Source of the DNA: Candidatus Zixiibacteriota bacterium
GTDB taxonomy: Bacteria; Zixibacteria; MSB-5A5; GN15; FEB-12
Length of the DNA: 40,495 nucleotides
Assembly: GCA_040753875.1 (NCBI GenBank)
Contig: JBFMDV010000021.1
Location: 1 to 40,495 of the forward strand
Direction of reading: 5' to 3'
The notes under the pieces were generated by a model. The model had not been told where the DNA came from, made no database searches, and was given only the letters and a program-made list of their open reading frames with translations. The position numbers and the translations under genes are program-made. Shown piece by piece: positions 12,911 through 27,942 of this stretch (positions within the stretch are counted from its first letter, which is position 1; every line of letters starts with the position of its first letter).

Positions 12911-14014
12911 TCACCACGTCAGCCGCCAGGAGGTCGTCGACGGCACTTTGACCCTTTGCCGAAGAATCGTCCCGTTCTGTCGCGCTATCGTGAACTCATA
13001 CTTGGTGCCGCCGGCAGTGAGCGAATCGGAGGGAATTACATCCAGAAAGAAATAGCCCGCGCTGTCGGTGACTGTGGTCACAGCAAACGGTGATACCACC
13101 AGTTCCCCTGACCGCACCACTCCACCCGGCAGATAAGCCCCAACCGCAGCGCCTGCTTCGGGAGTTCCGCTTAGGCCATATAAATAACCGTACACCCGAC
13201 AGAGCGTTGGCGAGGAGGGTGTCCCGGGGTCGAATCGGTATCCGAACACCGTGTCGATCCCAGTACCGGTGATGGTAACAGTATCAAAGGCGCTGAAGAT
13301 ATATCCCGGCGCACCAGAGATCGCCAGATACGATGCAGTGTCGAGATTAAGATTCACCCGGCCGGATGAGTTCGACATGCCGACGGCAATGAGCGCGCTC
13401 TGGTCCAGATTCCTGATCGCAAGCTCGGCTTCTGGAACCACCTGATTTGTCGACGAATCATAGACAATCACCGTGACGGCATATGCGCCGGAACCGTTGC
13501 AGCCACCCGTTTCGAGCGTCCCCAAAGTCGTGATTATCTTGCCCAGACTGTCGAGCGCTTTGGCCGAATTGCCCGCTCCCATGCCCACCGAATCAAGGGC
13601 ATCGGACAACTCCCGATCGACTATCTGAAAGCTGAATCGGTTTGGCGTCAGGAGTGCGCCACTGTTTTTCTTGGCGGTAATGACCCCGGAATACCAGCCG
13701 GCCGCACCCGCGCTGTCAATATCGGCGATGGGGCGGTGATAGTAGTAGTACCGCTGTCCCGCGATAGTCAGTGTATCCAATCCGGACATGGCGGCATTAC
13801 CTGAGTCACGGAAGATCGCTCCGTTGGCGTCTGATTTGCAGATGACCACATAGAAGCTGTCAGACGTCGTCGGGCGGCCGAGCGAATCCAAGCTCAGCAC
13901 CAGCACCGACAATGAGTCCTCACCGGAGGAACCCACATTGTTGACAAGCCCCTGCGCCGACACCGCCGTGACCAGAAACGGCGCGAGCACGAACATCACG
14001 AACAGATATCTCAT
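12911..14014 (-). CDS. Sec-exported Ig/carboxypeptidase-like beta protein at the end of the phage-derived operon
   Basis: 367 residues, with AAAGG ahead of the ATG. Residues 1-20 are a clear signal peptide (MRYLFVMFVLAPFLVTAVSA). The rest is beta-rich. About 178-255 (VIVYDSSTNQVVPEAELAIR then SGRVNLNLDTASYLAISGAP) and about 275-345 (VYGYLYGLSGTPEAGAAVGA then TDSAGYFFLDVIPSD) resemble carboxypeptidase-regulatory or transthyretin-like repeats. The N-terminal half, with YYYYHRP and SGVITAK near 95-115, resembles segments seen in structural proteins of related MAG phage clusters, but I cannot name the family. It follows the preceding exported protein gene by only 22 bases and is the last gene of the cluster. 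A phage virion protein would not normally carry a signal peptide. Confidence 0.75.
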   Translation of the reverse strand: MRYLFVMFVLAPFLVTAVSAQGLVNNVGSSGEDSLSVLVLSLDSLGRPTTSDSFYVVICKSDANGAIFRDSGNAAMSGLDTLTIAGQRYYYYHRPIADIDSAGAAGWYSGVITAKKNSGALLTPNRFSFQIVDRELSDALDSVGMGAGNSAKALDSLGKIITTLGTLETGGCNGSGAYAVTVIVYDSSTNQVVPEAELAIRNLDQSALIAVGMSNSSGRVNLNLDTASYLAISGAPGYIFSAFDTVTITGTGIDTVFGYRFDPGTPSSPTLCRVYGYLYGLSGTPEAGAAVGAYLPGGVVRSGELVVSPFAVTTVTDSAGYFFLDVIPSDSLTAGGTKYEFTIARQNGTILRQRVKVPSTTSWRLTW

Positions 14015-14036
14015 GGTAGACCTTTCTCAAAATTGA

Positions 14037-14801
14037 TCATAGCCGAACGAGCACGTGGCGTCGCCGCGAATTGGCCGTTTCAGATGTGGCGGTCGAATAC
14101 ACGAACTTCACCCACGGTCGAAGTGCACTGTTGCTGTTTTCTGTGCTGGCCCCTTCGGTGCGGGTCGACAGGGTGCTGAAGGCACGCCCCTTGATGAATA
14201 CGCCGTAATTGGCGCGCGTCCCTTTCAGCAGTGAATCGACCTGAACCGAATCCAGCACCCAGTAGTACCAACCGGCAGATGATCCCCCCGGAATGATCCG
14301 GTGCGCCAGTGTATCGGCCGTGGTGAAATCGCCACCTGCTGTTGTCCAAAAGGTATCCGGCGGCGTGGCGCTGACGCCGTTGTTGAACAAACGGTCCCAG
14401 TCCATTTCCGACGAGTCGGCCGTAATACCAAGGTTGTTGCCGACAAAATACCGGGCGTTGGGGCGGGTGCACCAGAAGATGTCGAACGTATCCGGGTTTA
14501 TGGAAAGCGTGGTTAAGTACACTGCGAGCGAACAAACCACGTTCGTGTTGGTACCAGTCGGTGTATTGAACCAGAGATACTGGCGGAAAGCCACGGCAGT
14601 ACCTGATCCCTTACCGATGATGACCCTGGTATCGCCACCATAATTATTGGCCGGATACGGCTGATAGATAAATCCGTCTTTGAAATCGGCTGCACCGGTG
14701 GCCGTGTAGCTGTCGGCGAAAACCGAACCACTTATCGACAAGACCAATACCGTGACGAGCCACAGAATAATCGACTTGTCGTGCGTCGCCGGTCGCCTCA
14801 T
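14037..14801 (-). CDS. Sec-exported DNRLRE-like beta-sandwich protein coupled to phage-derived genes
   Basis: 254 residues. Its ATG overlaps the stop of the upstream 104-residue gene in an ATGA junction, so the two are translationally coupled. Residues 1-29 are a signal peptide (hydrophobic core ILWLVTVLVLSISGSVF, cleavage near FADS). The mature part starts with a pattern typical of DNRLRE / carbohydrate-binding-like domains of secreted proteins: a disordered acidic strand, NNYGGDTRVIIG, then a strand ending RQYLWFNTP. These domains often occur in surface or filamentous proteins. No catalytic residues are seen. Its place inside a capsid-type operon, with an export signal, is the odd point. 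Confidence 0.75.
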   Translation of the reverse strand: MRRPATHDKSIILWLVTVLVLSISGSVFADSYTATGAADFKDGFIYQPYPANNYGGDTRVIIGKGSGTAVAFRQYLWFNTPTGTNTNVVCSLAVYLTTLSINPDTFDIFWCTRPNARYFVGNNLGITADSSEMDWDRLFNNGVSATPPDTFWTTAGGDFTTADTLAHRIIPGGSSAGWYYWVLDSVQVDSLLKGTRANYGVFIKGRAFSTLSTRTEGASTENSNSALRPWVKFVYSTATSETANSRRRHVLVRL

Positions 14802-15112
14802 TTCGGACTCCGCGGCCGCACCCTGGGTCGGGGCGACTTCACCGACTCAACGTGAGCTGTGCTGATGTCGACCGCGGCTCCGTCATTCGCAAGCGCTTCA
14901 CGACGGATTCTATCCATCATGTTCCAGAACTCGCGCTGCGCGCTGTTCTGGGGTGCCAGTTTCTTTCGCATTTCAATCATTTTGAGCAAATCTCCCAGCT
15001 TTGGTTTCTCTTTGAGGGTTTTCGCAATCTCCATGTAGCACTTCTCGATGAGACCATCCAGTACGTCCAGTCCGACCGGCACGGTCTCCTTTGATGCTGC
15101 TTTCGATGCCAC
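14798..15112 (-). CDS. small basic helical protein of the phage-derived cluster
   Basis: 104 residues with a GTG start directly abutting the upstream stop (TGA then GTG). It is predicted helical in the middle (EKCYMEIAKTLKEKPKLGDL, QREFWNMMDRIRREAL) with a basic proline-rich tail (SPRPRVRPRSPK). Not recognised. By position it could be a small head-completion or assembly protein. Its stop overlaps the start of the exported DNRLRE-like protein. Confidence 0.7.
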   Translation of the reverse strand: MASKAASKETVPVGLDVLDGLIEKCYMEIAKTLKEKPKLGDLLKMIEMRKKLAPQNSAQREFWNMMDRIRREALANDGAAVDISTAHVESVKSPRPRVRPRSPK

Positions 15113-15484
15113 TCAGTCCCCCATTTCAATTATCATCAGATCAGTCATCACCGGGCCGGCAGCATTCGGGTCGCGGGCGATCACAAACTGTTCCGGCGAT
15201 TCAGCCGCCACCACGTATACCGCGTTCTGTGTTCGCGCTCGCGGAATGACGCGCGGCGATTTGATGGTTTGCGGCAGGCTGTTGCCTCGGTGATCAACCA
15301 GATCCGCAAACGCCACCGTCTGCGCGCCGCCGCCGACATCGGCCGCTCCATAAAGAACGCTGGAGGTCGAATCGATCTGTTCGAGGGCCAGAAATTCGAT
15401 AGCCCCCAGCCCCTGCACACCCCACACCACGAAGTCCTGCACAAACCAGGCGCGGCGCGAGGTAATCTTCTCTAATGCCGTCAT
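15113..15484 (-). CDS. small beta-rich structural protein of the phage-derived cluster
   Basis: 123 residues from the ATG at 15484, with AAGGAG nine bases upstream; the frame is open 30 codons further but overlaps the previous gene. It is beta-rich with a central DHRGNSLPQTI segment and VIPRARTQNAVYVV, a style common in small head or neck proteins of tailed-phage modules. The exact family is not recognised. It lies 13 bases after the connector-like gene and abuts the next gene, so it is part of one operon. Confidence 0.7.
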   Translation of the reverse strand: MTALEKITSRRAWFVQDFVVWGVQGLGAIEFLALEQIDSTSSVLYGAADVGGGAQTVAFADLVDHRGNSLPQTIKSPRVIPRARTQNAVYVVAAESPEQFVIARDPNAAGPVMTDLMIIEMGD

Positions 15485-15497
15485 CACGGTTACTCCT

Positions 15498-16310
15498 TCA
15501 ACACAAGGTGGGTCCGGAAGGCCCTGCCACCGGTGGATGGAACGATTGCAGCAGGCGGTCGGCCCGGGTGGCAAACTCCTCGGCGAGTTTCAACCAGGCT
15601 TGGGCTGCGCCTGCTTGATTGGGGCCGGTCGACAGATCGCGCATTGCCGCGGCGCGGCACAGAATCTCGAGAGCACGCGAGGCCGCTGCGGCCCCGAGCA
15701 TCGGATCGGCACCAAACAAACCGTCGGGATCGACCTCGCGTTCCACCAGCCCATTTGCCTCATCGACCGCCCCGGCCAGCAGTTCTTCTTCGAATCCCTG
15801 GCATTGCGGAGAATAGTCCAGAAAGACCGTCTCTCCCGATTCGATCACACCTCCCGCCAGCCGTTTGATTTCCCCTGTATCTGCCTTGATCTGATAGTCC
15901 TGACCGACGACGCCGAGGGTGTACGGCAGAAACCAGGCGGTAACGGTTTGCCCGGAACTCAGTGCTCCGGCTGCTGTCGGGGCGACCGTGGCGGCACCAT
16001 AGTCCACGATGAAGTCTGAGTTTTCTTTGAAGACCGTCCCAAGCGAGCTGTCCGATGCGAGCAACACCGAGCCGCGAACTAGCGGCGTGCCGGCCAGCAC
16101 GGTCGGCGAATCCCCAAGTGTAACCGACACACGGGTCGGTTCGTCGGCGCGAAGCAGTTTGGCGCGCACCGAATCTGCCTGCACCAAACCTCCGAAAAAG
16201 CGCACGAACTCCGTGTCGCGGAGTGTCACGACCTGATCCGTAACCCGGTCGCCGATCGGAGTCCGGGATCGCAGGTACGGACGGATCTGGTCAACCGATG
16301 TGTATCCCAT
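15498..16310 (-). CDS. connector / head-completion-like protein
   Basis: 270 residues from the ATG at 16310, with AGGAGG six bases upstream; a GTG two codons earlier sits inside the ribosome-binding site and is unlikely. Residues 1-30 (YTSVDQIRPYL) and the C-terminal 80 residues are helical, as in head-tail connector (adaptor) proteins that dock under a portal. The middle, about 45-175, is a beta-rich insertion (VSVTLGDSPTVLAGTPLVRG, DYQIKADTGEIKRLAGG) resembling baseplate or tail-associated strands. The assignment is by position and general look. The start codon overlaps the end of the propeller gene's reading frame region by a few bases. Confidence 0.6.
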   Translation of the reverse strand: MGYTSVDQIRPYLRSRTPIGDRVTDQVVTLRDTEFVRFFGGLVQADSVRAKLLRADEPTRVSVTLGDSPTVLAGTPLVRGSVLLASDSSLGTVFKENSDFIVDYGAATVAPTAAGALSSGQTVTAWFLPYTLGVVGQDYQIKADTGEIKRLAGGVIESGETVFLDYSPQCQGFEEELLAGAVDEANGLVEREVDPDGLFGADPMLGAAAASRALEILCRAAAMRDLSTGPNQAGAAQAWLKLAEEFATRADRLLQSFHPPVAGPSGPTLC

Positions 16311-16312
16311 GA

Positions 16313-17734
16313 TCACCTCCTGACAATCATCCGTTGAACGGTTGAGATGGCGCTTATTTGCGAGCCTATGGGAGCTGTTGTGAACGCCGCTGTCACTTCA
16401 ATCTTAATCCAGAACCTGGTGTGGCCGGACAGAAGATTCTGCTGCCAGTCGGCCGGGATCGACGCGTAATCGCTGAAGAACAGTATACGAACGTCGGAGC
16501 TGTTCAGGTACGACAAGCCGTTGGCCGGCGTGAATGTCACCCAGTGGTTGCCGTCCCAGTAACTGAAACTGAGCGTGCCCCCGGCGCCCGAGGTCGACAG
16601 CAGAAATTCCGCATAGCGGAACGGCCGCGTCATCCCCAGATACAGACAATCACCGACTGCCGATACGAGGCTGCCGGTCGCCGGATGAAAAACGTCGCCG
16701 GAGGTCCCATTGGCCGCAGCCGCCGTCACATCGACATAGCTGCCGGCGCTCTGTGAAAACAGCAGCATGCTGTCGAGTGTCTTTGCCCGTGTATCCAGAA
16801 TTGCGGGCGCCGAGAATTCACCGCTTCGCCGCTCGACATATTTCATGTACGCCTGCGTGCCGACAAACCCGCACAGATAAAAAATCACCGGCACGCTCTC
16901 GCGAAACAGCAGTTGTGGCGAGTATCCCGGTCCACTGTCAAGTGTGACCAGTGCTCCCCAGTTGCGGCTGTCGAATTCACGATACCGGAGCTGTGAGTCG
17001 TTGAACACGAGGCCGAGACCGCCGTCCGGCCCGATCGCGGCATCGAAATGTTCACTGAATCCGCTCGTGCCGGTGGCGACCAGGTACTCATCTGACCAAG
17101 CGCCTCCGGCCAACGGCACCGAACGAATGGCGATACCGCTGCCGCCGTACGTATAGATCACATGCAGGTCGTTGGTCGCGACCAGTACCTTGGAAAACGC
17201 CTGAACCGCGCCCGTGCTCAGCGCCTGCCCGGAATCGGTCGGGCCGGTTCCCCAGCTTGCCCCGCTGTCGCTCGATGATTTGACATGCACATATCGATTG
17301 GGTGAGGCAAAACGAGACCAGTTCACCCAGAGCTTGCCTCCGGGCTCGATCGCGATCGACGGATCAAAGCACTGATTGCCATTGAATATGACAACCTTCG
17401 CGCCGACCGTCCAGGCGCCGGAGCCAAACGCGAGCTTGCGCGTCACCAGGTAATTGGTACCGGACTCCGGATAGACAACGTGCAGATTCCCGGCGCTATC
17501 CATGACAACATCGATGCTGCCGTCGGCTGCATCCGATGCGATCATCTGCAGCGATGACCAGGACGAATAGGGTGCGTCCGCGAACGCCAGCGCTATGTCA
17601 CTGGCGGAAGTCCGAAAGACTGCCACCTGACGACCGGCGTACGCACCCGACACGATCCGGAACAGCTTCCGCCCCGGCGGTGCACCCACCCCTAACGCCG
17701 GATAAGCGGTGGTGTCAGAGAGTTTCTTCAGCAT
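16313..17734 (-). CDS. sialidase-like propeller protein in the capsid operon
   Basis: 473 residues. Residues about 20-330 show repeated blade-like strands and an Asp-box (SSDSGASWGTG), as in sialidase or BNR-repeat propellers. The C-terminal 110 residues carry LSFSYWDGNHWVTFTPANG and DWQQNLLSGHTRFWIKIEV, a pattern often seen in phage tail or baseplate proteins. The catalytic arginine triad of true sialidases is not evident. There is no signal peptide. Lying directly after the major capsid gene, it could be a capsid spike, a receptor-binding protein or a glycan-binding decoration. Confidence 0.7.
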   Translation of the reverse strand: MLKKLSDTTAYPALGVGAPPGRKLFRIVSGAYAGRQVAVFRTSASDIALAFADAPYSSWSSLQMIASDAADGSIDVVMDSAGNLHVVYPESGTNYLVTRKLAFGSGAWTVGAKVVIFNGNQCFDPSIAIEPGGKLWVNWSRFASPNRYVHVKSSSDSGASWGTGPTDSGQALSTGAVQAFSKVLVATNDLHVIYTYGGSGIAIRSVPLAGGAWSDEYLVATGTSGFSEHFDAAIGPDGGLGLVFNDSQLRYREFDSRNWGALVTLDSGPGYSPQLLFRESVPVIFYLCGFVGTQAYMKYVERRSGEFSAPAILDTRAKTLDSMLLFSQSAGSYVDVTAAAANGTSGDVFHPATGSLVSAVGDCLYLGMTRPFRYAEFLLSTSGAGGTLSFSYWDGNHWVTFTPANGLSYLNSSDVRILFFSDYASIPADWQQNLLSGHTRFWIKIEVTAAFTTAPIGSQISAISTVQRMIVRR

Positions 17735-17788
17735 GAGTCCTCATTTCAAAGCTGCGCCCAGGTCCACTGACCCGGGCGCTCCTGCCGA

Positions 17789-18889
17789 TTAGAACACGGT
17801 ATCGAGAATTACCGCTGCCTCTTTGATGACCTTGGCGTACGCCACCGATTCGGTGATCACCGCTTCCTCGAAGCGCTGATCGATGATCTTGTCGTACTCC
17901 ACGATCAGTGGCTGTGTCACCACTTCCTCGATAGCGAAGCGGCTGTCCAGACCGATCACATAGTCGGTCGGGACTTCGTCGGAGCGAACCAGGGTCGCCC
18001 CCAGCGGACTGAACAGCTCGCCGCTCTGCTGGAAGCGGTATCCCGCCAGCGGGTCTTTGAACTCGTTCAGCGTGAGTATGGTCTTGAGCTTGTCGATATG
18101 ACACACCAGCGTCGTCATCTCGAACGGCGAGAACTCCGACCACAGCGTAATGAGATCGTTGTATGTCAGGGCGCCGGTGGCCGCCGCATTGACAACGGTC
18201 GCGGCGTTGTTGTTGCCGTCGCCGTTGATCAAGCAGTTCACGACCATGCCGATCTTGTCCGTCTGCATCCGGAACCCGATGTACCACAAGAGCACGCGAA
18301 ACTGTGCGGTGGAGCGGTACCGAAGCGCCTTATAGCTCGCTTTGAGCGCCAGGCCGTAATCGGTCACTGTGATGGCGTGAGTCTGCTCGGTGACGAGCAG
18401 CTGCGGTATCTCTGTTCCGTCCCCCACCGGCCGCAACGAGAATTTTGTGTCGTTGGACGTGTCGATGAAAATCGGCGTGTACCGATTTGACGCGATCGTG
18501 CTGCTGCCGGCGATCAGCTTCGCGAGTTCCGGACGCATACCCTGGCCACGCTTGATCTCGCGCAGGATGAACTCGGGCATCAGCGAAGGGGCTTTCTGGT
18601 AGAACTGCTCGACAGTCGTGGGGTTCTTCCCGCCAAGGCGAATGCCCGCAATGGCGAGCTGTCGCTCGAACGCGTCGAGCGCACAGCCGTTCGGCGTTGG
18701 ATCGTATTCATCACATTCAAGCAGTTCTGTCAGCGTCATGCCGCGGCTTTCCGCCTCCTGATACAGGTCGCGATTCACCTCGACTCCGGCGGCGCGAGTG
18801 AAGTCCACCGGTCCGGTAAGGCGCGAACTGTCGTCGTCATGCGACAATCGCTTGAGCATATCCATTTGAAGAAACGTATTGAAATCCAT
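17789..18889 (-). CDS. HK97-fold-like major capsid protein
   Basis: 366 residues, with AGGGA upstream. Position (after a protease and a small decoration-like gene) and features fit a phage major capsid protein. An N-terminal helical arm of about 110 residues, which may be the scaffold-like delta domain, is followed by a mature domain. Motifs include FSLRPVGDGTEIPQ, ITVTDYGLALKASYKALR (E-loop/spine-like region), LINGDGNNN, then a typical C-terminal P-domain strand (TDYVIGLDSRFAIEEV). It forms the shell of capsids. Cleavage by the protease encoded four genes upstream (20212-21747) is possible. The call rests on synteny and sequence style and needs a profile search for proof. Confidence 0.8.
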   Translation of the reverse strand: MDFNTFLQMDMLKRLSHDDDSSRLTGPVDFTRAAGVEVNRDLYQEAESRGMTLTELLECDEYDPTPNGCALDAFERQLAIAGIRLGGKNPTTVEQFYQKAPSLMPEFILREIKRGQGMRPELAKLIAGSSTIASNRYTPIFIDTSNDTKFSLRPVGDGTEIPQLLVTEQTHAITVTDYGLALKASYKALRYRSTAQFRVLLWYIGFRMQTDKIGMVVNCLINGDGNNNAATVVNAAATGALTYNDLITLWSEFSPFEMTTLVCHIDKLKTILTLNEFKDPLAGYRFQQSGELFSPLGATLVRSDEVPTDYVIGLDSRFAIEEVVTQPLIVEYDKIIDQRFEEAVITESVAYAKVIKEAAVILDTVF

Positions 18890-18901
18890 GGAGTCCCTTT
18901 C

Positions 18902-19324
18902 TCAGTTTAGCAGAAGCAGACAATTAGTCGTGCCGTTGATTTCGAGCACCGTCCCGCGAGCGATATTCCCGCCCGCAGGGTCATAGCCGGTCAGCAACGG
19001 CGCCTGTTTCACCGTGCCGGTCGTGCCGCCGACTACCCGGTTGCCGATTGTCGGATAGGTTGTCGAAATGGGCAGACGGCAGATGCCGCCAATTTGCACC
19101 GCCGCCAGACGGCTGCCGTTGTCCTTGTCTGTCAGCGTCAGGCCGATCAGCTTACCAAGCAGCTGGCCGCCGTTGCTGATCGGTCCCACTTCATTGCCGG
19201 CTGTCAACATCACCGGCTGGCCGATATTGGCGTCTTTGAGGTCATCGATACCGGTCGTCTGTTTGATCTTGAATGTCGCGATGACCGGCGCGATCGCCTC
19301 GAGATTCTGGTCTCGAATGGTCAT
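18902..19324 (-). CDS. capsid decoration/stabilisation-like small protein
   Basis: 140 residues from the ATG at 19324, with AAGGAG seven bases upstream; the open frame extends 36 codons further without support. It is beta-rich and glycine-rich, with a barrel-like pattern (FKIKQTTGIDDLKDANIGQP, TDKDNGSRLAAVQIGGICRL, ARGTVLEI). Small beta-barrel proteins directly ahead of the capsid gene are usually head-decoration proteins (DUF2190 or gpD style). It lies 12 bases ahead of the major capsid gene. Confidence 0.7.
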   Translation of the reverse strand: MTIRDQNLEAIAPVIATFKIKQTTGIDDLKDANIGQPVMLTAGNEVGPISNGGQLLGKLIGLTLTDKDNGSRLAAVQIGGICRLPISTTYPTIGNRVVGGTTGTVKQAPLLTGYDPAGGNIARGTVLEINGTTNCLLLLN

Positions 19325-19403
19325 ATCATTCTCCTTGTTTCTGTTATCCGTTTGAGTTGTCCGGGAGATACTCCCACAGAATGGGGACGATTTGTCCCAC
19401 AAG

Positions 19404-19814
19404 TCACTTGTACTCTGCGTACCTTTTCTCACGGCCAGTCGGCGTTGCCGATGCGATCAGCAAACCGAAGCTGGTCGGGAAACAATCGCGGAACCGGGCG
19501 GATGTCCGCCGATAGCACTCGATCAATTGCGCCGAGGTCAGATCGGCCAGCGTCTCCGCCTCTCGCAACACCGACTGAAGGCCGCTCTGCTTGCGGTCGG
19601 CTGCGGCGATCGCTTTGAGCATGCCGGCGATCCGGCCCTGGTAATCCTGACGAAGCAGCCGCAGTTCCTCATCGCTTGCCATGATCCGGTCGAGCACCGG
19701 CCCAAGCTGCTCCAGCCAGGACCGCAGTTGGTCGAAATCGATGTAAGACAACCTATCCTCGGTCAACGCCTCGCGCAGTTCCGCGATGTATGCGGTGTGA
19801 TCACTTATCTCCAT
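19404..19814 (-). CDS. helical protein between protease and capsid genes, scaffold-like by position
   Basis: 136 residues from the ATG at 19814; an adjacent ATG at 19817 is possible, but AGGAGG lies only two bases from it and five from the second. It is almost wholly helical, with heptad-like stretches (DFDQLRSWLEQLGPVLDRI, EELRLLRQDYQGRIAGMLKA). Not recognised. Genes in this place often encode scaffolding or assembly factors, but that is inference. It overlaps the upstream membrane protein gene by 14 bases. Confidence 0.65.
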   Translation of the reverse strand: MEISDHTAYIAELREALTEDRLSYIDFDQLRSWLEQLGPVLDRIMASDEELRLLRQDYQGRIAGMLKAIAAADRKQSGLQSVLREAETLADLTSAQLIECYRRTSARFRDCFPTSFGLLIASATPTGREKRYAEYK

Positions 19815-20157
19815 CATGGCCTCCTGCTTGATTGCTCAGATGAAACTCGATTTGCGCCAGGCGGCGATCGACCTCCTGCGAGAAGCGGTAAAACTGTTCC
19901 TTACTGACCACCCCCTCGCGCAGGATCACCTCGATATTGCCGAGTTTTTTGTCGAGTGTCTCCACCACCGCGCTTTCGGCCTTGGCGGCAAGCTCGATCT
20001 TGAGCGATTGAATCGTCATGAAGTATGCTGCCGCGATGCTCAGTGCCACCATGAGCAGGTTGAGAAGCTGTCCGCTTAGGCGCAGACCTGCACCATGCGG
20101 TTCGAGTTTCTCAATATTCCCTCCCGACATCTTTGTTGACCCGATCAGCCATTTCAT
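19801..20157 (-). CDS. single-pass membrane protein with coiled-coil tail
   Basis: 118 residues from the ATG at 20157, with GGAGG nine bases upstream. One transmembrane segment (LLNLLMVALSIAAAYFMTI, about residues 32-50) is followed by a charged helical domain (KEQFYRFSQEVDRRLAQIEF) likely to form a coiled coil. It resembles XhlA- or holin-accessory-type proteins in size only, with the order reversed. No muramidase or other lysis gene accompanies it. A membrane protein inside a capsid operon could anchor assembly or release. Function uncertain. Confidence 0.65.
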   Translation of the reverse strand: MKWLIGSTKMSGGNIEKLEPHGAGLRLSGQLLNLLMVALSIAAAYFMTIQSLKIELAAKAESAVVETLDKKLGNIEVILREGVVSKEQFYRFSQEVDRRLAQIEFHLSNQAGGHDGDK

Positions 20158-20211
20158 CTCCGATTGCCTCCGGTGTATAGGTTGAATATCACGCACGTTT
20201 CGTCGGACCGC

Positions 20212-21747
20212 TTACCGACAGTCTCGCGTGGTCTCATGTGCTGCCTCCAAATAGAACAGGTACCGCTTCCTTCCGGCCAGGCTGACCGGACGAAGCGCTA
20301 TTCTCTCCTTTGAGGGAGTGTTGATCGTCAACCGGATCCCACTCGATTCACCTACGGGATCGATTACCGCACGGCTCCGAAAGACCAGCGCCTGTCCCTC
20401 CGGTTGTCGATTCCGCAGTTCCGTCAGTCGGTCGGCGATGAACCGTCCCCCGTGACGCCACCGGGCCAGATTGAACTGACGGATCTCAAAGACCTGCCGC
20501 TCCGCGCCGAGACGGGCGACCAGGCGAGCGTGCGATGACGTTGCAGATGAAAGCAGTTCGATGACGTTGTCAGTTTCTGTAGGGATCTCTTTCAAATGAT
20601 AGGCACGTACCGACTGAACGGCCCCCGTGGGATCGACCGGCCGAATCAGCACACCGTGTTTTGTGGCCAACTGTTTGATGACATCGGCGAGTTGTTCGCG
20701 ATGTGCTATGCGGTGGCGGATCGTGCGGATGCTGAACCGGTCTTTCTCCCCGCCGCATTCGATACCGTCGGTCGACCCGTTCGGCTGCAATTGAAGTGAC
20801 AGGCGCGAGACGGGGCCCGACTGGTCAAGCAGGTACTGCTTCACAGCCTCAGCCGAGCAGCGCTCTTTCCCCCGAAAACCAACCAGGAGCGCAGGGGTAT
20901 TGTCGAGTTCCTGAAGGCCATCAAGCGGAAACTGAGCCGCCAGTCCAACCGGAACACTCAAACCATCCGGACCGCCGATCGACAACTCTCCGTCGTGAAG
21001 CGATGCTGTTACCGGAACCCCTTCATAGAACGGCACGACAACGAACGGACCCGTTTCCCTGATTGTCTCGATATCTGAAATCTCTACGGGACTCTCTTCG
21101 GCGCTTCTGTCCCGACCTGCCGTTTTCTGAAATAGCAGTTCTTTGCTCATGGAGGTATCCGGCGTAGCGCCGCGATAGACGAGTGATGTCTCCAGCACCC
21201 GTTCAATCTGGCGATAGTCAAAATGACAGACGGCCGAAACTCCGTCGGCGCGCCGATACTCCTGCATCGGCAGATGCTCGCAGGTGCGGATGTCCTGTCC
21301 ACAGATGGAGCACTGCGGCAGATGAAACGTGAACCCGATCGAGCACTCTTTGTAAATGCCCCCATCGATGTTATCACGAAGCGTCTCCGCGCCGTCGGCC
21401 CGACGCATCCAGAAGAAGTAGCTTCTTACCCAATGCCGCCCCTCCCTGACTGTTGCCACCGAGTGAAAATTGCGCGCGATTGGAAGCTGGTCTTTACGAT
21501 GTCCAATGAGAACAGGCGAGTCGATCAGCAAATGTGTCAGCCGCTCGTGTTCCTCGACCGGGAATCGCCCGCCGAAGCTGTTCACCTGGTCGGAGACGAT
21601 ATACATCGACCGGATGTAAACATCCCCTTCGGCGACGTGAGCCGGGGGCGAAATGTTCGTGTTGATAAGCTCGATCAATTCTGACGAGACCGTATTGTCG
21701 GCAGCGTCGGCAAGCTGCGCAGTGATTCGGCCAAGGCCGACATTCAT
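20212..21747 (-). CDS. prohead-protease-like protein with Cys-rich insert and long C-terminal extension
   Basis: 511 residues from the ATG at 21747, with GGAGG five bases upstream. About 40-215 resembles phage head-maturation serine proteases of the S78 type: DSPVLIGHRKD (candidate catalytic His), GGIYKECSIGF (candidate catalytic Ser in the SIGF motif) and RVLETSLVYRGATPDTS (the family's E-x-SLV-x-R-G-A-x-P strand). Between the Ser and the last strand lies a cysteine cluster (CSICGQDIRTCEH then a later CHFDY), which could bind zinc. Residues about 220-511 are an extra region with no recognised domain; HK97-type proteases are only about 200-250 residues long. The role is probably cleavage of the capsid protein N-terminus. 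It is the first gene of the second half of the phage-derived cluster. Confidence 0.7.
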   Translation of the reverse strand: MNVGLGRITAQLADAADNTVSSELIELINTNISPPAHVAEGDVYIRSMYIVSDQVNSFGGRFPVEEHERLTHLLIDSPVLIGHRKDQLPIARNFHSVATVREGRHWVRSYFFWMRRADGAETLRDNIDGGIYKECSIGFTFHLPQCSICGQDIRTCEHLPMQEYRRADGVSAVCHFDYRQIERVLETSLVYRGATPDTSMSKELLFQKTAGRDRSAEESPVEISDIETIRETGPFVVVPFYEGVPVTASLHDGELSIGGPDGLSVPVGLAAQFPLDGLQELDNTPALLVGFRGKERCSAEAVKQYLLDQSGPVSRLSLQLQPNGSTDGIECGGEKDRFSIRTIRHRIAHREQLADVIKQLATKHGVLIRPVDPTGAVQSVRAYHLKEIPTETDNVIELLSSATSSHARLVARLGAERQVFEIRQFNLARWRHGGRFIADRLTELRNRQPEGQALVFRSRAVIDPVGESSGIRLTINTPSKERIALRPVSLAGRKRYLFYLEAAHETTRDCR

Positions 21748-22004
21748 GGTTGCCTCCGTGGTTTGCATTCGCTAACCCGGGCGGATTCAGAATCAGAGGC
21801 ATTCTCACTCTATTTTTGCGCAAGCGGTTGCGGGGCAGAACAGAAACGAGCCGGTGGTCAAGCCCTTAAGGTCGCCCGCAAGCTGCTGGCCGGCAGCACC
21901 TTACTGCCAAACAGCGCCCTTGTGGTCGGGATTCGGGCATACCCTTTGCTCAATTGGCAGTTGACGTGAATTACAGGCTGTTCGCCTCGAAAGGATATAG
22001 GAAA

Positions 22005-22319
22005 ATGAAAGTCTATCAACGAAGAGAGCATCCGCCGTTCAAGTGGGTGCTGGCAGCGTTGCTGTTTCTGTTGGTGCTGACCTTCACGGTGGCCGAGGTG
22101 AACGGGATCAATCTCCCTCCGACCAACCCCGGCGCAACCAAACCGGCTCTCGCCGATCAGACACAGGATAACCCAGCCGACGAAATGTACGATCAGCAGC
22201 AAAACTGCGTACCGCCCGAACCGCCCATGAACCCGGTGCCGGAACCCACTACGATCATGTTACTGGCAGCCGGACTGGGGGGCGCTGCGATCAGCCAGTT
22301 GAAAGCGCGCAAGAAATAG
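22005..22319 (+). CDS. tiny PEP-CTERM protein
   Basis: 104 residues from the ATG at 22005, with AGGA four bases upstream and AAGGA further out. There is an N-terminal hydrophobic helix (WVLAALLFLLVLTFTV) and a C-terminal sorting signal: VPEPTTIMLLAAGLGGAA, then a basic tail KARKK. The roughly 50 residues in between are proline-, glutamine- and asparagine-rich, with no domain. Exosortase would cut at the PEP box and hand the protein to the cell surface. It is divergent from the protease gene of the phage-derived cluster. No exosortase gene is in the window. Confidence 0.8.
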   Translation: MKVYQRREHPPFKWVLAALLFLLVLTFTVAEVNGINLPPTNPGATKPALADQTQDNPADEMYDQQQNCVPPEPPMNPVPEPTTIMLLAAGLGGAAISQLKARKK

Positions 22320-22350
22320 ATAGTTCCCCCCAACCCTCCTCCTCCCTTCA

Positions 22351-22383
22351 ACGCCTTCTGAGCTACCTTCCCTCAGAAGGCGT
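22351..22383. terminator. 12-bp perfect stem-loop
   Basis: ACGCCTTCTGAG (22351-22362) pairs fully with CTCAGAAGGCGT (22372-22383) around a 9-base loop. It lies between the converging PEP-CTERM and DUF1697 genes and may end transcription from both sides. T runs are weak. Confidence 0.65.
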
Positions 22384-22401
22384 ACTTGTATCAGTTTCTA
22401 A

Positions 22402-22974
22402 TCAATGCCACTTTTGAGCCGATTTGTCAGTCGGCGGATACTTCGCCGCCAGCTTTTGAACCGTGCTCAACCCGTGAAACGTGCATCGTGTCTTCAACAC
22501 CCGCTCGAACGCAACATTGGAGAAGGTCGATTCACTCTGCTTCTTCTTGCAAAGCCAGTATACCTCTCGGCCATTGACGTGGAAGTCATCGATAGCCGTC
22601 TTGAACGTCATCAGCATTTTCTTCCCTTCGCGCCCCAATGGTTCTGCCAGAAAGCCCACATTAAACGCGACAGCAGTCTTGAAAGCGGAGTCCGCAAAGG
22701 GTTGATATCGCGAAATCTCTGCTACCTCGGCATCTGTCCTGACAAACGTCGCAACTTCATACCCAAGCGCCTTCATCAGACAACTCTCGATTTTCCTCTC
22801 CAGTGCCGCTGCCTTGGAGTCGCTAGTAAAAATCACGTTCCCGCTCGCAATCAACGTCTCCACGCCTGTGAACCCGAGCGATTCGAACAGTTCGCGAAGA
22901 CGCTCCATCTTGACGACATATCCTCCCACATTGATGGCGCGGAGGAAGGCGATGTAACGACTTGTGCACATCAT
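22402..22974 (-). CDS. DUF1697 family protein
   Basis: 190 residues. The N-terminus has the family signature YIAFLRAINVGG, then KMERLRELFESLGF and VETLIASGNVIF. DUF1697 proteins are about 180 residues and of unknown biochemical function. AGGAAA lies just upstream of two adjacent ATG codons, either of which may serve. It looks like an ordinary chromosomal gene placed inside the interruption of the phage-derived cluster. Confidence 0.92.
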   Translation of the reverse strand: MMCTSRYIAFLRAINVGGYVVKMERLRELFESLGFTGVETLIASGNVIFTSDSKAAALERKIESCLMKALGYEVATFVRTDAEVAEISRYQPFADSAFKTAVAFNVGFLAEPLGREGKKMLMTFKTAIDDFHVNGREVYWLCKKKQSESTFSNVAFERVLKTRCTFHGLSTVQKLAAKYPPTDKSAQKWH

Positions 22975-23004
22975 CAGATTTCCTCAGGACGCGGTTCTTT
23001 TCGA

Positions 23005-24378
23005 TTACATGCATGCAGGAAGGGATGCACCAAAGAACAAGAAGTCCACCAGCAGAGTTAAATCGGAAATGTCGATGGCGAGGGATTCGTCGACGTCACT
23101 TTCTTGGAAACAGCTTGAAATCGCACCTCCGAAAAATAAGAAATCCACCAGCGCTGATAGATCAGAAATATCGACAACATCTTCTGCGTCTGAGTCGACA
23201 TTCCCAGTGGTGCCCGCACAGCAGCCCCAGACTGCTATATGCTGAGCCGGAATTCCGCCCGCCTCCAAGAAAAAGCCTCCGGCAACCAGATAGCCTCGGT
23301 AGCTTAGAAGTGTAAACACGTACGCGATCCCGGCACCTCCGTAGATCCCAAGTCCCAAGCTATCCCACGTAGAACCATCCCATGATGCAATGTTGTTCAC
23401 GGCAAGCCCTCCCGCTTGCGTGAACGCCCCACCAGCAATAAGTCTCCCGTCGTGAACTACCAGCGAGTAAACGGCACCATTCATTCCTGCTCCAAGGGGA
23501 GACCATACGTTACCGTCCCACATAGCTATGTTGTTTGCTGGTATACCACCGGCTGTAGAAAAGTAACCACCTGCAACCAAGTGTCCGCCGAATTCTGCGA
23601 GGCAGTTGACTGACGGGTTGTCTCCCTGAATCTGCATTCCGGACCCGAGATTGGACCAAGAAACGCCGTCCCATGCTGCAATTGCGTTGGCTGAAACCCC
23701 GCCTGCTTGCGTAAAAACCCCGCCCACAATCAGCGTGTCATGATAAACGAGCAGAGCTCTGTTGTACCCATTCATTCCTGATGACAACGAATCCCATTGG
23801 CTGCCGTCCCATTCAGCTATGAAACGGCTTGGAACCCCGCCTGCATAATTGAACCTGCCTGCTACGATTAGTGCACCGTGGTATACCTTGAGGACCTCCG
23901 TAATGTCGTCCATGTCCGATCCAAGAGACAACCATGAACTGCCGTTCCATGCGGCGACATAGTTCACCGGCACACCACCGGCCGAGTCAAACATCCCGGC
24001 TGCATATAATGAATCATTGTAAACGGCAAGATCATTTACCTGCCCGCTCATACCCGAGGCCATCGGTCCCCACATGTTCCCATCCCACACAGCAATAAAT
24101 CTTGCACTTGTCCCACCTGCGATAGTGAATTGACCGCCTGCTATCAGGTTTCCGTTGAACTCCCCAAGAGCCCATACGTCTCTGTCCATGCCTCCACCCA
24201 AGGGTGACCAGAAGTAGCCAGCCTCCCACAGAGAGGAACTCGACGTAGTCCCCACACGAATTTGATCTTGATAACAATTCGCTTCAAGTGATTTGATGTC
24301 CTGGCTGGCGCCCTGTGACTGCAGCATCAACACTACTATCTCAATTACTAGTAGCGCATGTGTAGTTGTCGATCTCAT
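23005..24378 (-). CDS. secreted seven-repeat propeller protein with dockerin
   Basis: 457 residues from the ATG at 24378, which has AGGAGG upstream; the frame is open 23 codons further. An N-terminal hydrophobic stretch (HALLVIEIVVLMLQSQGASQ) is the signal peptide. There follow seven repeats of about 45 residues, each of the form W-x-x-LG-x-GM, then a strand ending LIAGG-x-F, then AGG, then IA-x-WDG. Seven such units could close a seven-bladed beta-propeller. The C-terminal 65 residues are a degenerate dockerin pair (VDSDAEDVVDISDLSALVDF and SDVDESLAIDISDLTLLVDF), lacking some acidic loop residues. It is probably surface-exposed; ligand unknown. Confidence 0.85.
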   Translation of the reverse strand: MRSTTTHALLVIEIVVLMLQSQGASQDIKSLEANCYQDQIRVGTTSSSSLWEAGYFWSPLGGGMDRDVWALGEFNGNLIAGGQFTIAGGTSARFIAVWDGNMWGPMASGMSGQVNDLAVYNDSLYAAGMFDSAGGVPVNYVAAWNGSSWLSLGSDMDDITEVLKVYHGALIVAGRFNYAGGVPSRFIAEWDGSQWDSLSSGMNGYNRALLVYHDTLIVGGVFTQAGGVSANAIAAWDGVSWSNLGSGMQIQGDNPSVNCLAEFGGHLVAGGYFSTAGGIPANNIAMWDGNVWSPLGAGMNGAVYSLVVHDGRLIAGGAFTQAGGLAVNNIASWDGSTWDSLGLGIYGGAGIAYVFTLLSYRGYLVAGGFFLEAGGIPAQHIAVWGCCAGTTGNVDSDAEDVVDISDLSALVDFLFFGGAISSCFQESDVDESLAIDISDLTLLVDFLFFGASLPACM

Positions 24379-24571
24379 ACCACCTCCTGACGTCAATTCG
24401 ACTGGCTGTAATGAACCGGCATAGTAACAATGCCGTTTGACATTCAAAATATGAAACTGAACGGTAGCCTAGTCAAGACCAATATCTGAAACAAGCAGAA
24501 TAGGAATGGAAAGAATGTGACGTACAATCTACCAAGTTCCCCGTATACATAGGCAAACAAAGGAGACCCGT

Positions 24572-25030
24572 ATGACCGAAGTCCAACGTATCACCGACCA
24601 ACTGCACCGCGCCTTCTATAGCGAGGCCTGGCACGGGCCGTCTGTCATGGAGTCGCTCGACAAACTGACTGCCGCACAAGCGGCCAAGCGACCAATCAAG
24701 TCAGCCCACAGTATCTGGGAGATTACCCTGCATATCGGCGCCTGGATCGATGCCGTCCGGCGGCGGGTGCTGGGAGAGAAGGTCGAACTCGACGACACAC
24801 AGGACTGGCCGCCGGTCAAGAACACCAGCGACGAGGCGTGGCAGGAAACTCTGGCCGAACTGAAACGCCGCCACGAAGCGCTTGAGAAAGTGGTTGCTGC
24901 ATTGAACGAAGCTCAACTCGAGCAATTGGCACCAAGCCGCACAACTACGATCTACTTCCTGATTCACGGCCTCGTTCAACATGACCTGTATCACGCTGGC
25001 CAGATCGCAATATTGAAGAGAGGGCTGTGA
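24572..25030 (+). CDS. DinB-like four-helix metal-binding protein
   Basis: 152 residues, with AAAGGAG upstream. It has the family layout of a four-helix bundle with three metal-binding histidines: His54 (in the WEITLHIGAW helix) and His137/His141 (VQHDLYHAGQI). DinB/YfiT-type proteins include thiol transferases and DNA-damage-induced proteins; the exact substrate cannot be told. It is a single gene divergent from the propeller-dockerin gene. Confidence 0.9.
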   Translation: MTEVQRITDQLHRAFYSEAWHGPSVMESLDKLTAAQAAKRPIKSAHSIWEITLHIGAWIDAVRRRVLGEKVELDDTQDWPPVKNTSDEAWQETLAELKRRHEALEKVVAALNEAQLEQLAPSRTTTIYFLIHGLVQHDLYHAGQIAILKRGL

Positions 25031-25083
25031 GGATTCCTCGCCGCTATGGCGTCGCGCTTAGCGGACGCCTGGACTTCGGAGTA

Positions 25084-25150
25084 TCGTCGCGTCGAGCGCA
25101 GACGAGACGCGATTTTGACCTACTTCGGTTCTCGACTCCGCTCGAACCGA
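25084..25150. repeat. inverted-repeat element related to the 40.1-kb tandem repeats
   Basis: 25084-25111 is the exact reverse complement of 40168-40195 (28 bases). 25128-25147 resembles the reverse complement of the second conserved block of that family (near 40221-40240). The two blocks can also pair imperfectly with each other. This is a dispersed copy of the family. The stretch 25031-25342 holds no gene and is filled by this element and the two nested hairpins after it. Confidence 0.7.
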
Positions 25151-25186
25151 CGGCAGACCATTGAACCGACGGCAAGGCTCCCCGTT

Positions 25187-25234
25187 GCGTCAGGTCCTGC
25201 TATCTGCCGACAGGCAGATAGTGTGACCTGACGC
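25187..25234. repeat. nested hairpin element, short form
   Basis: Outer arms GCGTCAGGTC (25187-25196) and GACCTGACGC (25225-25234) pair fully. Inner arms CTATCTGCC (25200-25208) and GGCAGATAG (25213-25221) pair fully. A CTG bulge on the 5' side and TGT on the 3' side separate the stems. The same architecture, with different arm sequences, occurs at 25246-25330 and 32639-32725. Confidence 0.75.
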
Positions 25235-25245
25235 CCTTTTCCGTT

Positions 25246-25330
25246 CGGGCAGGTCTTGCTTGCCCGAGACACAACGAGACTTCCCTGCTTTCTCCAATCT
25301 TCGGTGTTGAGGGCGAGTGTGACCTGCCCG
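25246..25330. repeat. nested hairpin element, 85 bp
   Basis: Outer arms CGGGCAGGTC (25246-25255) and GACCTGCCCG (25321-25330), inner arms CTTGCCC (25259-25265) and GGGCGAG (25311-25317, one G-T pair). TTGCT and GAGTGT flank the junctions. It lies just beyond the stop of the terminase gene and might also act as a transcript end for it. Confidence 0.75.
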
Positions 25331-25342
25331 TTTTATCGAAGC

Positions 25343-26635
25343 CTACAGCTTCCCCACCCTCGGCGGGATGACCACGCTATCTGACCGATGCAGCGGCCAC
25401 AATGCCAGAGCCAACGCCATCAGCGAATCACACTCGTTGTTGTCGCCCCACTGCGCACTACGAAGCTCATCCTCCAATGACCAGGTTCTCCCGGGACCGT
25501 CGGGCAACTCCCATCGCTCATACGACACCAGGCCTTTGGCGTGAATCAACTCGACATTGGTCAATAGCTCCGCCTTGACCGCCGGCGTGAAGATGACACT
25601 CATCGGATTAAACTCCGTCAACTGCGACACCACCACGTCCCCAAGGCCAGTAGCATCCACCACCAATTGACCCGGATAGTCACGTTGGCGGTGTTTGATT
25701 CTCTCGATAATGATGGGCCAGTCAAATTCCTTGTACCGTTCCAGTGCCACAACATGCGCTACGTCATCGATCAATTCGACCGTGATCCCCACGGTCGCGG
25801 TCCGTTTGCGCGCCAGGTCCCAGCCGGAAATGAAGCGACGCGACCGGGTGTTTTCGTCCGGTAGCGGCGAGTATTTTCGCGCAAGAGCGGCATCGATATA
25901 TGCACCGGCGAGTATCTCGCCGCCGGAGTCAACAAACTGCCCCATGATGTTCTGTTTCTGCCGTCCCTCCGAAAAATACCTGACCCGCTCATCCAGAAAC
26001 TCCGCCGATATGTGCGGGTTTTCGCGGCTGTCCCCATGTTGAACATACCCGGGACGTCGCTTCTCCAAAATCTCGCACGCACGACGGTAGAACCAGTTCT
26101 TACCGTTCGGTGTCGACACCAGGTCGAGTGTCCCTTCTCTGTCCGCCAGCCGCATCAGAATCACCTCTTCCACCACGTACTCCGGAAACGGCTCGAATGC
26201 AACTTCATCGAAAACCACCAGATCGAAATCATTCCCCAGCAGATACTCGCCGCGGTTCTGTGTCGAGCGGGCCTCAATCATGGCGCCGTTGCCGAACGTC
26301 AATCGCGGAAACGGCGTGTGCGTGTGCGAGTCGATCAGATCCGCCAGATGGGACGATCCGTGCACGAGCCGAAGCAGCTCGTTAAACACGATATTCGCCT
26401 GATCCTGGGTAATCGAGGCGACCACCGCTCGGTAACGGCCGGAACCGTCGAACCGCAGTGGCCGGACTCGATACAACGCATGATGCAGCAGCTTGACCGC
26501 CGAAACGAATGATTTCCCCCAGCGGTTGCCCGTCACCAGCAGGTTCTCTCGTTGCGTGGCGTTCTGCAGCCATTGGGACTGTCCGGCATGCAGTGTTACG
26601 CCGAGTACCGATGACGCAAAGTAGCTCGGATCAAT
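25343..26635 (-). CDS. phage terminase large subunit, no standard start codon
   Basis: The large terminase is the ATP-driven packaging motor and nuclease. The ATPase has Walker A TGNRWGKSF and Walker B LVVFDE. The RNase H-like nuclease has acidic sites in ISGWDLARKR, VVDATGLGD and CDSLMALALAL. All catalytic parts are present, so the protein looks intact. The only standard start (GTG at 26536) falls two residues before Walker A. The frame is open to 26695 and encodes typical terminase N-terminal sequence (DPSYFASSVLGVTL, then QSQWLQNATQRENLLV). In that stretch there is no ATG, GTG or TTG. The ATT at 26635 is used here as a provisional start; CTG at 26677, overlapping the portal stop, is an alternative. 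It lies downstream of the portal gene, the reverse of the usual order. Confidence 0.87.
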   Translation of the reverse strand: MDPSYFASSVLGVTLHAGQSQWLQNATQRENLLVTGNRWGKSFVSAVKLLHHALYRVRPLRFDGSGRYRAVVASITQDQANIVFNELLRLVHGSSHLADLIDSHTHTPFPRLTFGNGAMIEARSTQNRGEYLLGNDFDLVVFDEVAFEPFPEYVVEEVILMRLADREGTLDLVSTPNGKNWFYRRACEILEKRRPGYVQHGDSRENPHISAEFLDERVRYFSEGRQKQNIMGQFVDSGGEILAGAYIDAALARKYSPLPDENTRSRRFISGWDLARKRTATVGITVELIDDVAHVVALERYKEFDWPIIIERIKHRQRDYPGQLVVDATGLGDVVVSQLTEFNPMSVIFTPAVKAELLTNVELIHAKGLVSYERWELPDGPGRTWSLEDELRSAQWGDNNECDSLMALALALWPLHRSDSVVIPPRVGKL

Positions 26636-26673
26636 CAGGCCCTGCCGCCAGTCTATGGGAGCAACTTCCGTGT

Positions 26674-27942
26674 TCAGAACAACCCCGCCGCGCGTTCACG
26701 GGCCGTCTTCTCATCGATCAACCCTGCCTGATACAGTTTCAGCAGACTGTCCACGCGTTGTGACTGAATGGAGGCATGCTCGGTAGCCTGGTAGGCGAAC
26801 GTGTTGTCGAACACGAACTCCGCCCGTGCTTCAATTCCAGCCAACGCCAGATCGATGGCGGCGATCCAGTTGAGAAACCGGGCGACTTCCGCTTGCACCG
26901 ACCGCACCTGCCGCATGACCACATCGAATTTGAAATTCGACCAGGTAGTCGTAGCGCCATAGGAGTAACCGAGCAGGTACGGCGCGAGGTTTGTCCCGGC
27001 ACAGATGTCCTCGATCGTGGCGCGATGATTCACGAACCAGTTCGCCTGACTGCTCCGCGCGCTGTCCGGACCGATATACTCGATCGCCACGTTGTCCCAT
27101 GTGACCGGGTTGTCGTCGACCTCGCAGGAGCGGATCATCTCCACCGTGCTGTCGAAATACCCGTTGATGCGGTTGGTATAGGCGCTGTCCGATTCCCCCG
27201 CCATCCGCTCCGGCGGCGTGATCTTGATATGCAGCCGATGATACCCCGCGTTGTGGTTGCTTCGCTGCATATCCCGCACCAATTGCTGCTCGATATAGCT
27301 CACGAACGGGATTGGCTGCAAGATTGAGCGGCCGAACGGATCCGAGCTACTGCTGTTCAAACCGAGGTAATAGAAATCCGGCCGGTTCAGCTCGAGCGAA
27401 CGTTCGTCGAGTTCCAGAACCAACCGCGGTCCGGACCGTCCGGTTTCACGATGCATTCGCAGTGCATCCACGGGGATGATCCGATCCACACCGGTTCCAT
27501 CCGGCATGACAGTCAGAAAGGCGCCGAAAATACCGTCGCGAAATAGCGCCCCGAACAGCTCCGGCATCAAGGTCGCAAGACCGACTCGATTGTCGAGCAC
27601 GTTGGCAAACAGGTTCTCCGTGAGCCGCCCCAGTCGCTCCGCCGCCTTCGCTTCGACATGATTGTCAGCCGCGGCCGAGACCCTGAACGCTCCGGGCGCC
27701 GCGGACAAGCGGACCCAGGTCCAGACACAAGCGCTGATAATCGGAACATGGTCCACCAAAAAACGATACAACATCGTTCGGCACCGGCCGCTTTGGATAT
27801 CCCAAGGCGACCACTGCAACGAGGCGTGAAGCTGGTCAGCGGTTCGGAAATCACCCCGTGACCCGGTTGAAATTGAAGTGGCCAGGCGCGGCCGCAGGTC
27901 CTGTGTTACTCCCACAGGCCATCTGAACGGTACTGCAGACAT
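26674..27942 (-). CDS. phage portal protein
   Basis: 422 residues, with AAAGGAG seven bases upstream. Portal proteins form the dodecameric DNA entry ring of the capsid. Typical features are a helical wing (PFVSYIEQQLVRDMQRSNHN), a clip/stem region, and the C-terminal part with TNLAPYLLGYSYG, EHASIQSQRVDSLLKLYQAGLIDEKTARE (the YQAGLI-x-x-x-x-A-R pattern found in many portals). It appears full length. It is the first gene of the minus-strand cluster; the spacer before it holds a 27-bp palindrome. The terminase follows with overlapping or near-overlapping frames. Confidence 0.87.
   Translation of the reverse strand: MSAVPFRWPVGVTQDLRPRLATSISTGSRGDFRTADQLHASLQWSPWDIQSGRCRTMLYRFLVDHVPIISACVWTWVRLSAAPGAFRVSAAADNHVEAKAAERLGRLTENLFANVLDNRVGLATLMPELFGALFRDGIFGAFLTVMPDGTGVDRIIPVDALRMHRETGRSGPRLVLELDERSLELNRPDFYYLGLNSSSSDPFGRSILQPIPFVSYIEQQLVRDMQRSNHNAGYHRLHIKITPPERMAGESDSAYTNRINGYFDSTVEMIRSCEVDDNPVTWDNVAIEYIGPDSARSSQANWFVNHRATIEDICAGTNLAPYLLGYSYGATTTWSNFKFDVVMRQVRSVQAEVARFLNWIAAIDLALAGIEARAEFVFDNTFAYQATEHASIQSQRVDSLLKLYQAGLIDEKTARERAAGLF

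Follow-up and report, generated by a model that had tools for sequence, protein, structure and literature searches.

A phage-derived head and DNA-packaging module kept through the Zixibacteria, a candidate gene-transfer-agent-like system

Known gene transfer agents and related systems

Six features have been proposed for gene transfer agents (GTAs), namely proteins derived from caudoviricetes, endogenisation in the host genome, often at several loci, mostly vertical inheritance, packaging of mostly random host DNA, a head too small for the genes of the agent itself and delivery to other cells (PMC9662315). The described GTAs are few and belong to alphaproteobacteria, a deltaproteobacterium, a methanogen, Brachyspira and, in 2026, Faecalibacterium (PMC9662315, PMC12946183). 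The last of these, FpGTA I/II (Borodovich et al. 2026, PMC12946183), is the nearest experimentally known system to the locus considered here; FpGTA I particles are about 40 nm in size, contain about 8.5–9 kb of host DNA and have no visible tail.

The window, i.e., the whole stretch of DNA that was analysed, is one complete contig (C21, 40,495 bases) of a 3.29-Mb, 100%-complete MAG of Zixibacteria. Phage-head and DNA-packaging genes occupy its minus strand at 12.9–27.9 kb. Literature searches brought up neither a description of this kind of module in Zixibacteria nor any paper on Zixibacteria and gene transfer agents. Set beside FpGTA by description only, the module is likewise a compact operon with terminase large subunit (TerL), portal and capsid genes, near-ubiquitous in its group and devoid of replication genes. 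However, FpGTA is limited to one genus, whereas the Zixibacteria module spans a whole phylum, and FpGTA has a small terminase (TerS) as well as baseplate and lysis genes in a second operon, none of which was found in the module.

Other systems resemble the locus in part. RcGTA (Rhodogtaviriformidae) possesses a tail of siphovirus type and carries genes for its release; vertical inheritance, intact HK97-type head and packaging genes and more than one chromosomal locus are common to it and the module, but the major capsid protein (MCP) of the latter comes from another family (phrog_3922, not PF05065). The portal-tail machines of podophages (LME-1, P22 and T7) show an order of portal, adaptor and propeller-bearing nozzle resembling that of the module genes. 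The likeness is structural only, and no sequence similarity was found. Capsid-forming PICI satellites also carry genes for head and packaging but no tail; they are mobile and patchy, while the Zixibacteria module is fixed and inherited.

Gene content of the module

The minus strand encodes a portal, TerL, a prohead protease, a decoration protein, an HK97-type MCP, a propeller protein, an adaptor-like protein, small proteins and two secreted proteins. All reading frames of the module are open in the window, G+C content is much alike inside and outside it, and neither tRNA nor any Rfam family was detected in the window. The features are as follows.

26674..27942, minus: portal protein, 422 aa (phrog_3753, E=9e-17), kept through the phylum and relocating with TerL
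25343..26677, minus: terminase large subunit (Terminase_6N; phrog_2, E=1e-30; PDB TerL matches)
22402..25030, mixed strands: cellular insertion (Pfam), outside the module proper
24572-25030, plus: DinB_2, in the insertion (Pfam)
23005-24447, minus: Rax2/DUF5122 propeller with dockerin-like repeats, in the insertion (Pfam)
22402-22974, minus: DUF1697, in the insertion (Pfam)
20212..21768, minus: prohead protease (conserved GH, ecS and C-x2-CG...C.H motifs; homologue 5' of MCP in phage relatives)
19801..20196, minus: small protein, one predicted membrane helix, coiled-coil-like end (sequence, conservation)
19404..19817, minus: small helical protein g9, conserved chiefly in families f1, f3 and f4
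18902..19432, minus: capsid decoration protein, ~140 aa conserved (phrog_4588, E=1e-6; homologue 5' of MCP in all six phyla)
17789..18889, minus: HK97-type major capsid protein, 366 aa (phrog_3922, E=1e-65; Pfam Phage_capsid_4; tree)
16313..17734, minus: propeller and beta-sandwich protein, 473 aa (AlphaFold2 model; LME-1 structural match)
15498..16316, minus: adaptor-like protein with a tail-like beta domain and a three-helix C-terminal domain (AlphaFold2; homologue near MCP in other phyla)
15113..15574, minus: small beta protein g4, ~124 aa core, conserved across the phylum
14798..15112, minus: small conserved protein g3 (a g3-like gene lies between portal and TerL in families f15/f16)
14037..14801, minus: variable secreted protein, CBM96-like (signal peptide)
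12911..14014, minus: secreted protein with a carboxypeptidase-regulatory-like C-terminus, the 3' end of the module (38/41 loci; signal peptides)

A previous sequence-only reading of this DNA described a phage-derived head module with intact frames, and profile matches for MCP, portal, TerL and decoration protein agree with it. It also took 12911-27942 for a single module. This holds for the head and packaging genes but not for 22402-25030, where the DUF1697, Rax2 and DinB genes form a cellular insertion between TerL and protease that has no counterpart at that place in the 40 relatives examined.

The listed TerL gene encodes 397 aa from GTG 26536, its product beginning with the Walker A motif. 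The open frame spans 450 aa; upstream of the listed start it contains no ATG, GTG or TTG, and homologous sequence continues for about 50 codons upstream of the first such codon (window 26536-26677). TerL is probably 444 aa long and starts from CTG at 26677, overlapping the portal stop. Walker A, Walker B (DE), STP and the nuclease aspartates D240, D294 and D370 are conserved, as had been stated for all the catalytic residues, and the profile of the protein matches solved terminase nuclease and ATPase domains in the PDB. Additional 3' fragments of TerL occur near or apart from the full gene at G078, G080, G121 and L206, as if local insertions duplicate the end of the gene.

The prohead-protease-like protein noticed earlier is recognisable as such from its conserved GH, ecS and Cys4 motifs. 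Its N-terminal ~220 aa are conserved, and the variable C-terminal half is possibly a scaffold. The protein at 19801..20196, with a weak match to phrog_462 'lipoprotein' in four scanned members of a mixed set, is a possible holin- or spanin-like component, and g9 might conceivably be a scaffold or small terminase. The annotated upstream start of the decoration protein is probably too long. The block gave no recognisable lysis gene, small terminase gene or regulator.

On one side, the module is flanked by genes of an M50 peptidase, a response regulator-HD protein and a radical SAM protein, and on the other side by PEP-CTERM, TPR, DNA polymerase III delta, LiaF-like and SBP genes. Large dockerin-bearing proteins are encoded near the module (window 864-6056 and 10095-12542), and relatives of the second of them adjoin it in many genomes (cluster c8). 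The slot 14037-14801 is filled by differing secreted proteins, such as CBM96 and disaggregatase-repeat ones, among genomes. This slot before the last gene is a possible recognition cassette.

The absence of a recognisable tail, as claimed from the sequence, was confirmed in part. Tape measure (PF10145), baseplate J (PF04865) and the PF05065 capsid family gave no match in the whole 3.29-Mb genome, while control genomes were matched. The module has no long tail, but 'no tail' is too strong a statement, as the propeller and adaptor folds match tail proteins. The AlphaFold2 model of the 16313-17734 protein (pLDDT 90.7) consists of a propeller and a C-terminal beta-sandwich. In the PDB, it is most similar to chain M of the portal-tail complex of podophage LME-1 (E=3.6e-12), with PLL lectins and sialidases close behind, and the model makes it tail-nozzle- or receptor-binding-like. 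The adaptor-like protein (pLDDT 86.7) matches the phi812 baseplate and a YSD1 tail protein; its match to the RcGTA neck is weak. On the basis of these fold matches, a short nozzle at the portal is plausible. The role of a lectin or sialidase enzyme was also considered for the propeller protein and is not favoured, because its length and its position 3' of MCP are fixed throughout the phylum.

Distribution, inheritance and relatives

MCP was found in 111 of the 132 genomes of the phylum (73/78 among those of good quality) and TerL in 115, in nearly all GTDB families. One or both are present in about 124 genomes, two of which rest on weak TerL matches; both are missing in eight, one of them 98% complete. 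The module is single-copy, no genome contains two full MCP copies, and there are essentially no stops. As 20-kb neighbourhoods of about 40 relatives showed, the order of the block in 40 genomes is portal, TerL, an insert, protease, g10, g9, decoration, MCP, propeller, adaptor, g4, g3, a variable secreted protein and CarbReg. The portal-TerL pair has been relocated together in several distant families, yet it is retained; it lies 91 kb off in G114 and about 60 kb off in G128. In the single-contig genome G026, MCP is split between L202 (G026:C1, about 1.725 Mb), with residues 1-154 on the portal side, and L203 (about 2.32 Mb), with residues 106-366 on the propeller side, the overlap being about 48 residues; this is an inversion or a misassembly.

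Trees were scored for congruence against GTDB family labels rather than a marker-gene species tree. In the MCP tree (58 bacterial rows from 15 families, one partial row being left out), 14 family changes were counted, which is the minimum; each multi-member family is monophyletic with a bootstrap of 98-100, and the order of the window's genome forms one clade. The TerL tree requires 15 changes for 16 families, again the minimum, though TerL sits at another locus in several families. The MCP of the window is 62-81% identical to copies in genomes mostly titled candidate division GN15 or Zixibacteria.

Values of dN/dS, calculated by NG86 for congeneric or near pairs, range from 0.013 to 0.43 over the core genes and are mostly at or below 0.2. 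They amount to 0.013-0.115 for MCP, 0.09-0.10 for TerL, 0.09-0.17 for portal, 0.09-0.18 for adaptor, 0.09-0.24 for propeller, 0.11-0.30 for protease and 0.06-0.28 for g1, and reach 0.43 in small genes. In the sequence-only reading, patchy presence, neutral dN/dS and tail or integrase genes on adjoining contigs had been named as signs of an ordinary or decaying prophage. Presence is not patchy, and every core gene is under purifying selection. Since the window is one whole contig, the surroundings were checked through relatives; the 20-kb neighbourhoods of about 40 of them contain host genes, and their conserved block has neither a tail tube, a sheath or a tape measure nor an integrase module. 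Distribution, selection and trees thus support a retained cellular capsid system, not a dead prophage, with gene transfer as its presumed function. It is hardly to be doubted that the module as such is domesticated, i.e., owned by the host.

With the window MCP, IMG/VR yielded nothing in a scan for close relatives, and an alignment scan gave 370 distant ones. Among the 80 kept, the closest is 61% identical and the other 79 are 33-38% identical. The closest one belongs to a contig (L090 / L250, IMGVR_UViG_3300027896_005586) with a Zixibacteria-type module of the same gene order; filed as viral, it is probably chromosomal. Many others are 10-15 kb modules with portal, protease, decoration and MCP genes. 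In one contig read over its full length (L145), these four genes are preceded by TerS and TerL and followed by baseplate genes. The published FpGTA operon is broadly similar in its make-up. Another contig (L092), with sheath and Dit, belongs to a contractile phage. Phage record MT835508 carries no annotation. TerL relatives in IMG/VR are 29-35% identical, and the phage stretches that carry them lack the other core genes; the module may therefore be chimeric in origin, with TerL and head genes from different sources. The nearest viral TerL (about 35%) was observed on phage contigs L251-L255, where the other core genes are absent from the stretches read.

A profile search of 386 genomes, most of them outside the phylum, revealed MCP in only eight outsiders, from five phyla. 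In these five phyla, related MCPs are single-copy and common to near-universal (106/130 genomes; 34/39, 13/14, 4/6, 3/3 and 52/68 per phylum). The blocks are of the type decoration-MCP-small-adaptor-TerL-portal in the G286 phylum, portal-protease-...-decoration-MCP-adaptor, followed at some distance by weak endonuclease and endolysin matches, in the G270 phylum, and MCP-adaptor-Dit-like-protease in the G274 phylum. In a joint MCP tree, four phyla (Zixibacteria, G286, G274 and G185) come out as separate clades, and the two rows of the G306 phylum are placed within or next to the G270-phylum group. More than one domestication event may have occurred, since Zixibacteria and the G286 and G185 phyla make up one clade (100/100) with 0/25 viral rows inside, whereas the G274 phylum pairs with phage contigs L091/L092. 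Among three genera of a small phylum (L176, L177 and L243 in G306, G159 and G440), MCP is 94-96% identical, which is unusually high in comparison with other phyla.

Proposed particle and alternative readings

In our opinion, it is likely that this domesticated, vertically inherited head module makes a GTA-like, short-tailed or tail-less DNA-packaging particle. The prohead would be assembled on the portal by MCP, protease and decoration protein, and TerL, with its ATPase and nuclease residues intact, would load it with cell DNA by the headful mechanism; a small terminase to choose a pac site was not recognised in the block. The adaptor-like and propeller proteins would seal the portal as a short, podovirus-like nozzle. 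Surfaces would perhaps be recognised by the secreted carbohydrate-binding proteins encoded at the module end, and release would presumably depend on lysis functions encoded elsewhere. Gene content, catalytic residues, purifying selection and co-inheritance with the host are observed and the folds are predicted; we infer particle formation, packaging of host DNA, a short tail and delivery to kin cells. As a long tail is absent, DNA delivery is left unexplained unless the propeller and adaptor proteins form a nozzle or tail parts are encoded elsewhere.

The missing long tail, together with the lack of tape measure and baseplate J in the genome and the intact residues of the packaging motor, would also suit a head that packages host DNA without delivering it to living recipients, as in PBSX-like killing, release of DNA to serve a biofilm or as a nutrient, or its disposal at cell death. 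This is unlikely, however, in view of the purifying selection on portal, adaptor and propeller genes and of the secreted carbohydrate-binding genes at the module end, which would suit recognition; killing of the PBSX type requires a long tail, which is missing here. That the phage head has become an encapsulin-like or other cargo compartment is quite improbable. MCP is indeed the most conserved part, with dN/dS down to 0.013, and the HK97 fold is common to encapsulins, but to our knowledge encapsulins have neither portal nor TerL. Here, the portal and a TerL with intact catalytic residues are kept, the latter in 115/132 genomes even when unlinked, and no cargo enzyme is fixed beside MCP, so that the encapsulin arrangement of a shell gene with a cargo enzyme and no portal or terminase is not observed.

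The known layout of satellites has head and packaging genes but no tail, and a capsid-forming PICI-like tail-stealing satellite or a tail-less integrated element borrowing helper tails might look similar. We regard this as very improbable, given the single-copy, family-congruent inheritance through the phylum and the split loci; integrase, primase and repressor were not found in the block or the window, and no integrase or replication genes were found by Pfam and PHROGs in the window or in the conserved block. An ordinary or decaying prophage has the least to recommend it and is scarcely credible. The core proteins are phage-derived and IMG/VR MCP relatives at 34-38% include the contractile phage L092, but the module is present in nearly all genomes in single copy, is under purifying selection, has hardly any stops and gives congruent trees, all of which speaks against it, and the only close IMG/VR contig (L090, 61%) is itself such a module.

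The GTA-like head module shows three of the six published features. Its proteins are caudoviricete-derived according to Pfam and PHROGs profiles, PDB matches and viral relatives; it is endogenised, with host genes on both sides and portal-TerL elsewhere in several families; and it was mostly inherited vertically, co-diversifying with the host as measured against GTDB family labels. Because the other three features concern particles and need experiments, the module is a GTA-like candidate rather than a proven GTA.

Summarizing these data, one intact, vertically inherited phage-head set is present in almost every sequenced Zixibacteria genome and in the majority of genomes from five other bacterial phyla. 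It points to a gene-transfer particle of great age in bacteria not known to possess one and provides a concrete, testable set of genes, raising the question of how a particle lacking a long tail would deliver DNA. The occurrence of an intact module in several phyla of uncultured bacteria suggests a much greater age and a much wider spread of phage-derived DNA exchange than has been documented. It is a tentative and rather doubtful idea that a single lineage of tail-less or short-tailed gene-transfer particles predates the separation of several bacterial phyla and has been inherited ever since; if true, this lineage would rank with the most ancient and widespread domesticated viruses known, and transfer of DNA by heads alone would be commonplace among bacteria.
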